A stretch of 33,257 bases of DNA, from positions 1-33,257 of IMG/VR virus record IMGVR_UViG_3300032309_001493; one strand, written 5' to 3'. Source of the DNA: a virus. The position numbers and the translations under genes were made by a program. Positions within the stretch are counted from its first letter, which is position 1. Each line of letters opens with the position of its first letter. Below, one piece after another: positions 7,097 to 19,015 of the stretch. The notes beneath the pieces are model-generated. The model ran no database searches. It was not told where the DNA came from and saw only the letters and a list, made by a program, of their open reading frames with translations.

Positions 7097-7789
7097 ATGG
7101 ACGAACCGAAGCTTGACAAAAACAAGAAGTACTATGCAAAACTGCGTAATGATCCCGTTCGATGGGCTAAGCACCTTGCAGCGGACAAAGTGCGTAAAGA
7201 GCGAGCTAAGCATAAAGACTCTTTAGATCCTGAACGATTGAAGTATGCAGCTGAGATGGCTCGCGCAAGACAAGATCGCTTTAAAGCAAAAAAAGCCGCT
7301 GAGATGTTGGGTTTACCAGTACCTACGATTATTTCTAATTGCTCGACCAAAAAAGAAAAACCGAAGTTTTCTAATGTAGCGCAACGGATCATTGACTCGG
7401 TTGAACGCATTAAAGAGAAGAGAGTCTTACAGACGCCAGAAGAGCGTGCAGAAAAACGTCGTTTGTGTACGCTTAAATACACTGCAATACGCAACGAAAA
7501 GCGCAAGCTAGAGCGCGAGCTAAACCCACCAGCGACGAAGCACCGTCGTGTAACCCTAAACGACACAGCACGCCATTTTGAGATAATAAACAGCTACTCG
7601 GTTAGTTCAAGGTTAATGTCTATCACTGAGGCAGCGCATTACCTTGACATTTCACCTGGCGAATTGATAATGGCGGGGCTGAAAGGCGAGGCACCAAGAC
7701 CAAGTGGTATGATACACGGTGGGGTAATAGCCTATGCTATTGACGCAATCAGGGAATACAAAAACAATCAAAAGGGACAAGATAAATGA
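7097..7789 (+). CDS. MerR-like helix-turn-helix protein with long basic middle
   Basis: The 230-residue product has three parts. The start carries YYAKLRNDPVRWAKHLAADK (about 12-31), a lysine/arginine-rich middle follows (about 60-150), and an excisionase/MerR-like helix-turn-helix ends the protein (SITEAAHYLDISPGELIMAG near 176-195, then APRPSG and IDAIREYKN). Gene 8567 shares both ends but lacks the middle, so the two are paralogues. GGAGGA lies before the ATG. A DNA-binding regulator or recombination accessory factor is likely; its exact job is unknown. The stop overlaps the next gene by ATGA. Confidence 0.65.
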   Translation: MDEPKLDKNKKYYAKLRNDPVRWAKHLAADKVRKERAKHKDSLDPERLKYAAEMARARQDRFKAKKAAEMLGLPVPTIISNCSTKKEKPKFSNVAQRIIDSVERIKEKRVLQTPEERAEKRRLCTLKYTAIRNEKRKLERELNPPATKHRRVTLNDTARHFEIINSYSVSSRLMSITEAAHYLDISPGELIMAGLKGEAPRPSGMIHGGVIAYAIDAIREYKNNQKGQDK

Positions 7790-8566: not shown

Positions 8567-8905
8567 ATGTCTAGAGTTGAGCAAAAAAGACGAAGTTACG
8601 AGAAATTAAGGAAAGACCCAGCGCGATGGGAAAGAGAGATGCTCCTTCAAGCTGAAAGGCGCAAGAGATATAAAGAGGCATTGAAAAACAATAGTGAAGA
8701 CGAAGGTGTCAAAACTTTAACCTTTAAAGAAGCAGCTGACTATCTTAAGATTGACGTCAGCAGTCTTATCATGGAGTGTATAAAAGGCGTCGCACCACGA
8801 CCCAACCAAGTAGATCGCAATGGAGAACCGACCTACGACGCGCGTGACATAAAGCAGTACCGTCTAACAAGGAAGAATGAAAATGCAGATAACCATAACG
8901 TGTGA
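8567..8905 (+). CDS. MerR-like helix-turn-helix protein, short paralogue of 7097
   Basis: The 112-residue product starts with RSYEKLRKDPARWEREMLLQ and ends with a helix-turn-helix (TFKEAADYLKIDVSSLIMEC, then GVAPRPNQ and ARDIKQYRL). Both ends align with gene 7097 (YYAKLRNDPVRWAK... and SITEAAHYLDISPGELIM...GEAPRPSG), but the 110-residue basic middle of 7097 is absent. A small DNA-binding protein is likely. The ribosome site is weak (GGGGTC). Confidence 0.65.
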   Translation: MSRVEQKRRSYEKLRKDPARWEREMLLQAERRKRYKEALKNNSEDEGVKTLTFKEAADYLKIDVSSLIMECIKGVAPRPNQVDRNGEPTYDARDIKQYRLTRKNENADNHNV

Positions 8906-16377: not shown

Positions 16378-16704
16378 ATGAGTGAGAAAAAAGTAGAAGA
16401 TAAAGGTGGTAAATTATGCAAGGAGTTAGGTCTTGAGCACCGTAAATTCACGTCTCCGTCACGCCGTTCCGTTCCTGATCGGCTTATTCTGGGTTGTATC
16501 CCCCCCGAGGATCGAGAAACCGTTGCAAAGTATGTACGTTTTGTTGAGTACAAATCGGAAAAGGGAACTCTCACCCCCGGACAAGTCCGAGAGCTAAACC
16601 TACTGCACGCCCTTGGGTTCTACACCGAGGTTGTGCGCAACGTTGATGGACAAAGAGATGTCTACGAGGGGATGACTGGTGTCAAAAATACTGAAACCAA
16701 GTGA
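16378..16704 (+). CDS. VRR-NUC domain nuclease
   Basis: ATG 16378 is chosen because AGGA lies seven bases upstream; an in-frame GTG at 16372 is too close to it. The 108 residues match the virus-type replication-repair nuclease domain: SVPDRLILG near 32-40 (catalytic Asp), YVRFVEYKSEKGTLTPGQVR near 54-73 (E-x-K core) and LHALGFYTEVV. In phages this domain is a structure-specific DNA endonuclease, normally next to the SNF2-type helicase as here. The helicase gene starts inside its last 26 bases. Confidence 0.85.
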   Translation: MSEKKVEDKGGKLCKELGLEHRKFTSPSRRSVPDRLILGCIPPEDRETVAKYVRFVEYKSEKGTLTPGQVRELNLLHALGFYTEVVRNVDGQRDVYEGMTGVKNTETK

Positions 16705-19015
16705 TCTCCACGATTACCAGAAGCGCGCAATTGCACATCAGTGTACCAACCCTTATACGATGCTCTGGCTCGACATGGGTCTGGGTAAGACCATCATAAC
16801 GTTGAGCACCGTAGCACACCTTCTCAATCAAGGTGTGTTGAAGTCCGTGCTTGTCGTGGCACCATTGCGCCCGTTAAAGGGCGTATGGCGTCAACAGGCA
16901 CTCGAATGGGCACAGACGAAGCACCTTACGTTCTCGCTTATCTCAGGTACACCAGACCAGCGCTTTAGGGCGCTCAATCGCAAAGCTAACGTGTACCTAA
17001 TTAATAATGAGAACCTGAAGTGGTTGAGTGATGTTGTTAAAAAGAAGCTAATCGACAATGGTAAAGATCTACCGTTCAACGGTATCGTCTGGGACGAAGT
17101 GACGAAGATGAAGAACAGCACGAGTAAGAGAAGCAAAGCTGTGTTACCGATTGTGGCCAAGATGGACTGGATCACGGGGTTGACGGGGACACCAGCATCA
17201 AACGGTTTCCCTGACCTTCACGGGCAGTTCTTGGTCGTCGATAAGGGACAAAGACTGGGTGTCTACAAGACTCACTTTTTGGAGAATTATTTCTCTAAGG
17301 ATGGGTACAAACTAAAGCCTCATAACTTCTCGCTTGATGAGATCAAGCAAAAGATCGCAGACATAACGCTGGAGATGTCTGCTGAGGAGTACAACAAGCT
17401 ACCTGACATGGTGATTAACGACTTGCTGATCGAGTTACCCGACGAACTACGGGCAGATTACGACGGGATGGAGAAGGAGTTTTTCCTTCAACTCGATGCA
17501 CAGACCCACGTCGAGATCTTCAACAAAGCGTCGTTGACCAACAAGTGCCTTCAGTTCTCTAACGGTGCGATGTATTTGGAAGCTGGTAAACCAGAGTACC
17601 ACGTTATCCACGACTTGAAGCTGGATGCCTTGGAAGACATCATCGACTCGGCACAAGGTAACCCAGTGTTGTGTTCCTATGCGTACAAAAGCGACGCAGA
17701 CAGGATCATGAAGAAATTTAAATCACTCAATCCTATCAACCTGACTGCATGTAAGAGTGACGCACAACTGAACAACGCCATGAAGCGGTGGCAGAGTGGC
17801 GATTGTCCCTTGATGATTGGGCACCCTATGTGTTTAGCTGCCGACACTGAGGTTTTAACTGAACTGAGAGGTTGGGTTAAAATTACAGAGGTCCTACAAA
17901 CCGAGAAGGTTTTTGATGGTGTGGAATACGTCACCCATGATGGTTGCTCGTACTCAGGGTACGAAAAAACTATCGACCTATTTGGGATAACTATGACCTC
18001 AAACCATAAGATTCTTGTTGACGGAAAATGGAAGGAAGCCAGACATGTACAAGATACTGAGGAAAACAAGCGAAAAAGTTTATACAAATGGCAAACGCCA
18101 TCCAATTGTGGAGGCGGAATGTCTACGATGTGGCAAGATTCACGAGTTGATACGTCAAAATGCCATAAAGTCCAATCGTCAAAAGAGGGAGAATTGTCCT
18201 CATTGTATCGAGGAAACTTTTCATCGACTTACAGGATCACGAATATGGAGGATCTGGCAGGGTATCAAGAACCGTGCGACCGATACAACAGACAAAAATT
18301 ACGCGGGTCGCGGGATAACTATGACCAAGGAATGGACACACTTCGAGAAATTCTACGCCGATATGTCGATCGGTTACGCCGACGGGCTGACGATAGAACG
18401 AATCGACAACAATTTACCATACTCTCGTACCAATTGTCGTTGGGCGACCAATATGGAACAGCAGAGAAACAAACGAAACAATCGGTATTTGGAATATCAA
18501 GGAGAGAAAATTCATTTGGCGGAGCTGGTTCGTCGATCGGGGTTTTCCAAAATTATGCTTACGAAACGGTTGAATCAGGGAATGTCTGGAGACGAAGCAG
18601 TGGAAAGTTGCAAGCAGTCTCCGTACGGGAAAAGTCAGGAACCGAAGAATGTCAAAAAGAGACAAGGACGCATGTCTACGACCTTGTTAACTGTGGACCA
18701 CGAAACAGGTTCTTAATACGTAATAAGGACGGTGAAATGTTCATTTCACATAATTCCATGGGACACGGGATTGATGGGCTACAGAAAACAGGGTCCATCC
18801 TTGTGTGGTTTGGTCTGACATGGTCACTCGACCTATACAGTCAGTTCAATGCACGGATACGACGGCAGGGACAAAAGAAGCCAGTAGTATGCCATCGAAT
18901 TTTCACCAAGGACACGTTAGACCAAGCACAGGCAATGGCTCTGGACGAAAAAGCCGCTGGCGAAAATTCACTGAGAAGAGCAATCGGAGAGTATCGGAGA
19001 ATGAAATACGGGTGA
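16679..19015 (+). CDS. SNF2-type helicase interrupted by an intein
   Basis: The 778-residue precursor should splice to a 470-residue DNA-dependent ATPase (residues 1-384 joined to 693-778). Seen: motif I MGLGKT (33-38), motif II WDEVTKMKN (DE at 139-140), motif III TGTPASNG (169-176). The intein lies between residues 384 and 693, splitting motif V (HPM before it, SMGHGIDGLQ after it). Motif VI is QFNARIRRQGQ near 722-732. SNF2-type phage helicases assist replication or recombination and pair with VRR-NUC. The start is GTG 16679 after GAGGGG. The stop abuts the stop of the leftward holin gene without a gap. Confidence 0.85.
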   Translation: MSKILKPSDLHDYQKRAIAHQCTNPYTMLWLDMGLGKTIITLSTVAHLLNQGVLKSVLVVAPLRPLKGVWRQQALEWAQTKHLTFSLISGTPDQRFRALNRKANVYLINNENLKWLSDVVKKKLIDNGKDLPFNGIVWDEVTKMKNSTSKRSKAVLPIVAKMDWITGLTGTPASNGFPDLHGQFLVVDKGQRLGVYKTHFLENYFSKDGYKLKPHNFSLDEIKQKIADITLEMSAEEYNKLPDMVINDLLIELPDELRADYDGMEKEFFLQLDAQTHVEIFNKASLTNKCLQFSNGAMYLEAGKPEYHVIHDLKLDALEDIIDSAQGNPVLCSYAYKSDADRIMKKFKSLNPINLTACKSDAQLNNAMKRWQSGDCPLMIGHPMCLAADTEVLTELRGWVKITEVLQTEKVFDGVEYVTHDGCSYSGYEKTIDLFGITMTSNHKILVDGKWKEARHVQDTEENKRKSLYKWQTPSNCGGGMSTMWQDSRVDTSKCHKVQSSKEGELSSLYRGNFSSTYRITNMEDLAGYQEPCDRYNRQKLRGSRDNYDQGMDTLREILRRYVDRLRRRADDRTNRQQFTILSYQLSLGDQYGTAEKQTKQSVFGISRRENSFGGAGSSIGVFQNYAYETVESGNVWRRSSGKLQAVSVREKSGTEECQKETRTHVYDLVNCGPRNRFLIRNKDGEMFISHNSMGHGIDGLQKTGSILVWFGLTWSLDLYSQFNARIRRQGQKKPVVCHRIFTKDTLDQAQAMALDEKAAGENSLRRAIGEYRRMKYG
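17831..18754 (+). other. Intein in helicase motif V (308 codons)
   Basis: The insert runs from Cys385 to Asn692 of the precursor and is followed by Ser693. Block A is CLAADTEVLTELRGWVKI, block B is GITMTSNHKILVDGKW with the T-x-x-H motif, block F is VYDLVNCGPRNRFLI, and block G is FISHN with penultimate His, terminal Asn and Ser as +1. All chemical residues for class-1 splicing are present. The roughly 200 residues between blocks B and F (about 18050-18660) have no in-frame endonuclease motif and are polar and biased in composition; this stretch instead carries an HNH gene in the +1 frame. Confidence 0.9.
18045..18716 (+). CDS. HNH homing endonuclease nested out of frame inside the intein
   Basis: Read in the +1 frame relative to the helicase/intein, 223 codons are open from ATG 18045. 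GGAAGGAAG at 18030-18038 is a good ribosome site at normal distance. The product starts with a zinc-ribbon-like part (CLRC at 26-29 and CPHC at 51-54). It continues with the phage HNH core: RIWRIWQGIKNRA, NYAGRGITMTKEW (85-97), FEKFYADM, LTIERIDNNLPYSRTNCRWA (115-134), EQQRNKRNN. It ends with a helix-turn-helix segment (YQGEKIHLAELVRRSGFSKI...) typical of homing endonucleases. The gene begins right after splicing block B and ends inside block F coding. It would cut intein-free helicase genes and so spread the intein. Confidence 0.9.
   Translation: MYKILRKTSEKVYTNGKRHPIVEAECLRCGKIHELIRQNAIKSNRQKRENCPHCIEETFHRLTGSRIWRIWQGIKNRATDTTDKNYAGRGITMTKEWTHFEKFYADMSIGYADGLTIERIDNNLPYSRTNCRWATNMEQQRNKRNNRYLEYQGEKIHLAELVRRSGFSKIMLTKRLNQGMSGDEAVESCKQSPYGKSQEPKNVKKRQGRMSTTLLTVDHETGS

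Follow-up and report, generated by a model that had tools for sequence, protein, structure and literature searches.

Canonical bifunctional inteins combine a Hint splicing domain and a homing endonuclease domain in one reading frame. In the fractured genes of Dassa and co-workers (2009), a free-standing endonuclease gene reportedly lies between the two halves of a split intein. The ShiLan domain is an out-of-frame HNH insertion in a phage gene, without intein splicing motifs and with no detectable ribosome site, and is thought to be retained in the protein (PMC11855218). For overlapping frames, the ShiLan paper cites a study of Actinobacteriophage inteins with non-canonical architecture, 10.1101/2025.01.02.630785 (PMC11855218). 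The element described here is carried by a viral DNA stretch of 33,257 nucleotides (IMG/VR record IMGVR_UViG_3300032309_001493, thereafter the window). It consists of an intein inserted in a helicase gene and of an HNH endonuclease gene that overlaps this intein in the +1 frame.

Comparison with these three systems leads to the following points: (i) the Hint halves, the insertion in a conserved replication gene and the presence of endonuclease coding sequence from block B to block F are those of canonical bifunctional inteins, but the HNH of the window is a separate out-of-frame gene that has a start and a stop of its own, and the intein frame encodes only a disordered linker there; (ii) as in fractured genes, an endonuclease gene lies between intein halves, and seven split relatives show this very layout, their endonuclease being of the same HNH family or of the GIY-YIG type, whereas the window intein is contiguous and read through, its endonuclease overlapping the gene of the halves rather than separating them; (iii) as for ShiLan, the HNH is in a shifted frame, the host frame is open and the patchy distribution suggests homing, but the HNH is carried here by an intein in which no splicing residue is missing, and the inteins with an HNH in the +1 frame (+1 class) have a ribosome site.

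The intein and the gene it overlaps

The 308 residues of the insert are encoded in the helicase frame without a stop, and the host open reading frame (ORF) is contiguous across it. The class 1 intein signature is complete, i.e., Cys1 in block A, TxxH in block B, Asp in block F, His-Asn in block G and Ser at +1. When the window intein is aligned with 52 relatives (53 inteins), C1, T56-x-x-H59, D284 and N308 are invariant and H307 is present in at least 90% of the sequences. The invariant or near-invariant positions are confined to the first 70 and the last 27 residues, and the linker has no invariant residue at all. The intein family profile matches solved inteins (E 1.2e-5). In the AlphaFold model, both Hint halves have a predicted local distance difference test (pLDDT) value of ~97 and the linker is mostly below 50; the best PDB matches of this model found by Foldseek are inteins (probability 1.00, E ~2e-3). 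An intein-free homologue exists in phage DSL-LC05, the junction of which reads GHPA^SMGHGIDG. On the basis of its sequence and predicted fold, the insert is confirmed as an intein in a phage SNF2-type helicase. It must be noticed that a Pfam scan gave no match in the window's own intein, that the NCBIfam score is below cut-off and that few relatives match Pfam. Such inteins are thus easily overlooked.

The HNH ORF begins at the ATG 18045 and its stop (18714-18716) falls at about residue 295 of the intein, i.e., at the end of block F. In addition to phrog_3377 (Table 1), its product matches phrog_374 (E 1.6e-35). Foldseek found no significant match of the HNH model in the PDB. A structural second look gave the HNH restriction enzyme PacI as best match (Z 6.9 over residues 58-144), a value below the level trusted alone.

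Most of this anatomy had been proposed by a sequence-only reading of the window. The intein with all its splicing blocks, the separate 223-residue gene placed between blocks B and F and its zinc-ribbon cysteines were all recovered as conserved features. The ribosome site announced ahead of the ATG is present in the sequence, is purine-rich and agrees with the Shine-Dalgarno excess of the +1 relatives (see below), and helices fitting the expected C-terminal helix-turn-helix are predicted. The «HNH core» holds as regards homology to HNH families and fails as regards the first His of the motif, replaced by an invariant Arg119. The profile searches which that reading had recommended for the +1 product and the intein led to phage HNH families and to solved inteins, respectively.

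Table 1. Location of the intein, of the overlapping HNH gene and of their parts (positions in the window).
Feature	Position	Strand	Basis
Helicase precursor ORF, GTG start, 778 residues	16679..19015	+	open ORF; SNF2-rel_dom, E 6e-18
N-extein	16679..17830	+	portion of helicase precursor ORF
C-extein	18755..19015	+	portion of helicase precursor ORF
Intein, 308 residues, Cys1 to His307-Asn308, then Ser+1	17831..18754	+	invariant residues, profile, model
N-terminal Hint half, residues 1-88, blocks A and B	17831..18094	+	pLDDT ~96-98 to residue 80, 88 beyond
Intein-frame linker, residues 94-266	18110..18628	+	mostly predicted disorder, unconserved, without stops
C-terminal Hint half, residues 276-308, blocks F and G	18656..18754	+	pLDDT ~97; D284, H307, N308
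Putative ribosome-binding site, purine-rich, GGAAGGAAG, AAGGA core, 8 nucleotides before ATG	18030..18038	+	sequence
HNH endonuclease gene, +1 frame, 223 residues and stop	18045..18716	+	phrog_3377, E 3.6e-40; model pLDDT 89; dNN/dSN 0.33
Zinc ribbon of HNH protein, C26, C29, C51, C54	18120..18206	+	invariant, 62 sequences
HNH-like core, R77 to R144; R119, Y126, N130 invariant	18273..18476	+	62-sequence alignment; PacI structural match
C-terminal helices 158-165, 169-177, 182-190, likely helix-turn-helix	18516..18614	+	predicted secondary structure
Stretch absent from close relative L195/L008, net 438 nucleotides	18194..18626	+	HNH core lost, both intein halves in frame

Constraint on the two frames and translation of the HNH

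The null model consisted of 20,000 synonymous-codon shuffles of the HNH gene, in which the protein and the codon usage are preserved. The shuffled genes contain on average 16.1 stops in the intein frame (minimum 6) vs. 0 observed; the third frame of the HNH gene contains 9 stops. The intein frame is also free of stops in 88/88 inteins with an intact HNH (window included), the expected mean being 8.0 for the +1 class and 3.9 for the +2 class. Six free-standing HNH relatives contain 7-14 and 18-45 stops in the two shifted frames. These comparisons support the view, already put forward by the sequence-only reading, that selection maintains an open intein frame across the HNH gene. That reading had also estimated the probability of a chance second frame at 2 in 100,000: the length of the frame is indeed beyond chance, but the figure rests on a weak null, to which the synonymous shuffle is preferable. 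Stops in the intein frame of relatives, which it held to be contrary evidence, occur only where the gene is split or damaged.

A rate test was performed on 27 hand-chosen pairs, some of which share sequences, and yields raw ratios uncorrected for multiple hits. For the HNH protein, dNN/dSN is 0.33 and 0.31, i.e., HNH-altering changes are about three times rarer than HNH-silent ones. For the intein linker, dNN/dNS is 1.07 and 0.84, i.e., altering changes are about as common as silent ones. With ratios of ~0.3 for the HNH and ~1 for the linker, the former is therefore selected for its sequence and the latter mainly for the absence of stops. As judged from these rates, purifying selection acts on the HNH protein, in line with the conservation of the +1 product expected beforehand, and the linker is near neutral but stop-free.

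A second-frame ORF due to chance, or a decaying remnant without function, has a negligible probability. A general caution over overlapping ORFs is the sole argument for it, and it is opposed by purifying selection on the HNH frame, invariant zinc and core residues, a confident fold and homology at E 3.6e-40; it is considered already refuted by the rate test and the homology. A sequencing error that would have placed the HNH out of frame by a frameshift, a possibility raised by the sequence-only reading, is excluded by ~140 relatives.

In the +1 class, a Shine-Dalgarno match precedes the start codon in 57/61 cases vs. 139/274 background windows (P 4e-11, the sequences being non-independent), and the start codons cluster directly after block B. 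Internal initiation is the best-supported route of HNH translation in this class, and we infer the same route for the +2 class. The +2 start codon is conserved in 94% of the sequences; it overlaps the TGG of a conserved Trp and is largely forced, and was discounted as evidence.

Programmed ribosomal frameshifting would instead produce an HNH fused to the N-extein and the N-terminal intein half. The lack of a significant Shine-Dalgarno excess in the +2 class, the frame of which could be reached by a -1 shift, is in favor of this route. It is nevertheless improbable: a conserved slippery heptamer shared by the sequences was not found (any heptamer is present in 8/32 for +2 and 11/62 for +1), and the +1 starts have the position and the Shine-Dalgarno matches described above.

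A recurrent class and its allelic forms

Searches with the N block and the HNH led to 100 distinct intein rows, and the survey was extended by a C-block search. The relatives were thus recovered through N-block and C-block alignments; a search for close relatives with the whole intein was unsuccessful because the linker is unconserved. The 100 rows comprise 61 with the HNH in +1 and an open intein frame, 31 with the HNH in +2, 3 without HNH and 5 that are broken; none has the HNH in frame. Among the 92 HNH-bearing rows, a few retain only a remnant of the HNH. The C-block search added 38 and 8 further rows, again with no in-frame case. An endonuclease domain in the intein reading frame was found neither in the window (+1) nor in the relatives (+1 or +2), but the survey seeds all had out-of-frame HNHs and this absence holds only for this intein clade. 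The restriction to +1 and +2 would be explained by the fact that a stand-alone gene with its own stop fits inside an intein only out of frame. On the basis of these alignments, ~140 distinct related inteins, which interrupt helicases and DNA polymerases of phages and come mostly from metagenomic contigs, carry the HNH in +1 or +2; the recurrent class suspected by the sequence-only reading is thereby established.

The named phages are Hamiltonella APSE, Caulobacter RW, Shewanella SFCi1, Gardnerella AB1 and Streptococcus Javan255 for +1, and Vibrio 97.13, Pseudomonas MR14, EBPR siphovirus 2, Sodalis SO-1, Shigella EP23, Salmonella Ent2 and Pseudomonas LDT325 for +2. Salmonella jerseyviruses and Dhillonviruses belong to the class. 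Matches to the N block occur in 145 Salmonella phage records, the frame having been read in one of them, Ent2 (+2). In bacterial genomes, a single prophage copy was recovered, in Arsenophonus (L103), and it appears degenerate. The insertion sites vary: DNA polymerase has several and helicases have more than one. The intein and HNH trees contain ~3 frame changes, one of which (L092) is an apparent single 1-nucleotide insertion or deletion shifting both frames. Frame changes are few, and the frame is therefore stably inherited.

Some members are already in the records under different labels: P45/P46 of APSE-1 (+1), where P46 is an HNH without intein; gp38/gp39 of Sodalis SO-1 (+2), where gp39 is placed in an intron; and the Salmonella Ent2 polymerase intein (+2), for which only the intein splicing domains are given. 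In SO-1 (L200 1094-4282), gp39 is annotated within a type I self-splicing intron but resembles a gene carried out of frame by an intein.

The intron label can also be considered for the window: the insert would then be a group I intron that carries an HNH gene and is excised at the RNA level. Phage group I introns often contain HNH genes and the annotators of SO-1 chose this label, but such an origin is very improbable here. No Rfam family reaches the gathering threshold anywhere in the window. Moreover, the insert has an open frame, conserved intein splicing residues and a Hint fold, and the deletion forms devoid of HNH retain the intein frame.

These deletion forms include the close relative L195/L008 (Table 1). 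In five other relatives (L037, L073, L126, L148, L172) an intact HNH is also absent and the intein frame is still open. In the close relatives L196 and L197 the intein is precisely absent, the flanks being 90-95% identical. Empty, full and endonuclease-less alleles are thus found in one phage group, and their sequences fit the prediction of a homing cycle. As a separate observation, identity of the window with L196/L197 is ~95% just after the intein site (18757-19008) and ~90% upstream; co-conversion or simple conservation are both possible.

In seven relatives (L013, L032, L065, L081, L125, L158, L187) the intein is the place where the polymerase gene is split. The layout is N-extein plus N-terminal intein half, then endonuclease, then C-terminal intein half (IntC) plus C-extein, IntC having its own start codon where it was read closely. 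The same stretch contains 5-27 stops in the intein frame. In all of these but L125 an HNH gene bridges the intein halves, which are possible natural trans-splicing inteins. In L125 (629-3816) a GIY-YIG endonuclease gene lies between the halves of the split DNA polymerase, and its ORF shares 8 nucleotides with that of IntC.

A different HNH family is found in the terminase inteins of Synechococcus phage S-EIVl (L205 2501-3430) and of a relative (L206), which belong to another intein family. Their +1 frame encodes an HNH of PF01844, with a score above the curated cut-off. The expected numbers of stops in the intein frame are 13.0 and 11.5, respectively, and none is observed. These terminase inteins suggest a second origin of the out-of-frame arrangement. 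A Mycobacterium terminase intein used as a control has a LAGLIDADG-like motif in frame and stops in the other frames.

Taken as a whole, the best explanation is very probably a mobile intein with its endonuclease as an overlapping gene. Ribosomes would read through the helicase and the intein would splice out, the linker being discarded with it. Other ribosomes would initiate internally and produce a free HNH protein, which would cut intein-less alleles, repair then copying the element in. Another reading, in which the overlapping genes are real but the HNH serves a purpose other than the homing of this intein, e.g., general competition between phages or the processing of DNA, is unlikely. It is established that many HNH proteins of phages do not act in homing, but the location of the HNH inside an intein, the empty, full and deleted alleles of one phage group and the many unrelated insertion sites fit homing.

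Four points weigh against a mobile intein of this kind: (i) in the HNH family, an invariant Arg (R119) occupies the place of the first His of the classical motif, their equivalence being our reading of the motif; (ii) the Shine-Dalgarno excess of the +2 class is not significant (P 0.06); (iii) the mobility of the intein is deduced from its presence and absence; (iv) the counts of relatives are distinct sequences and not independent events.

Two other regions of the window may be mentioned. A 222-residue ORF (1416-2084, + strand) has a weak match to the HNH endonuclease family phrog_99 (E 7e-7) and is possibly a second, free-standing endonuclease. The ORFs 7097-7789 and 8567-8905 (+ strand) are two small putative paralogues with a common C-terminal pattern and no PHROG match.

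Significance of the overlapping arrangement

A literature search covering largely openly readable papers, with the preprint 10.1101/2025.01.02.630785 outside its coverage, found no description of out-of-frame HNH genes inside inteins. We lean, with some reserve, toward the view that the overlapping-gene intein is a widespread and stable third homing-intein architecture, overlooked as profile libraries miss it. It would have had at least two origins, involving different HNH families, and would be an intermediate toward split inteins in which a free-standing endonuclease lies between the halves.

One stretch of DNA is used for two separately encoded proteins across a whole phage clade. The out-of-frame HNH explains the apparent lack of endonuclease in many phage inteins, including the annotated polymerase intein of Salmonella jerseyviruses. 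The arrangement also provides clean natural data for the study of overlapping genes, since one frame is constrained in its sequence and the other only to stay open. Finally, it suggests (i) a route by which inteins may gain an endonuclease, namely by capturing an entire gene, which can happen only out of frame; and (ii) a route from contiguous inteins to split ones.
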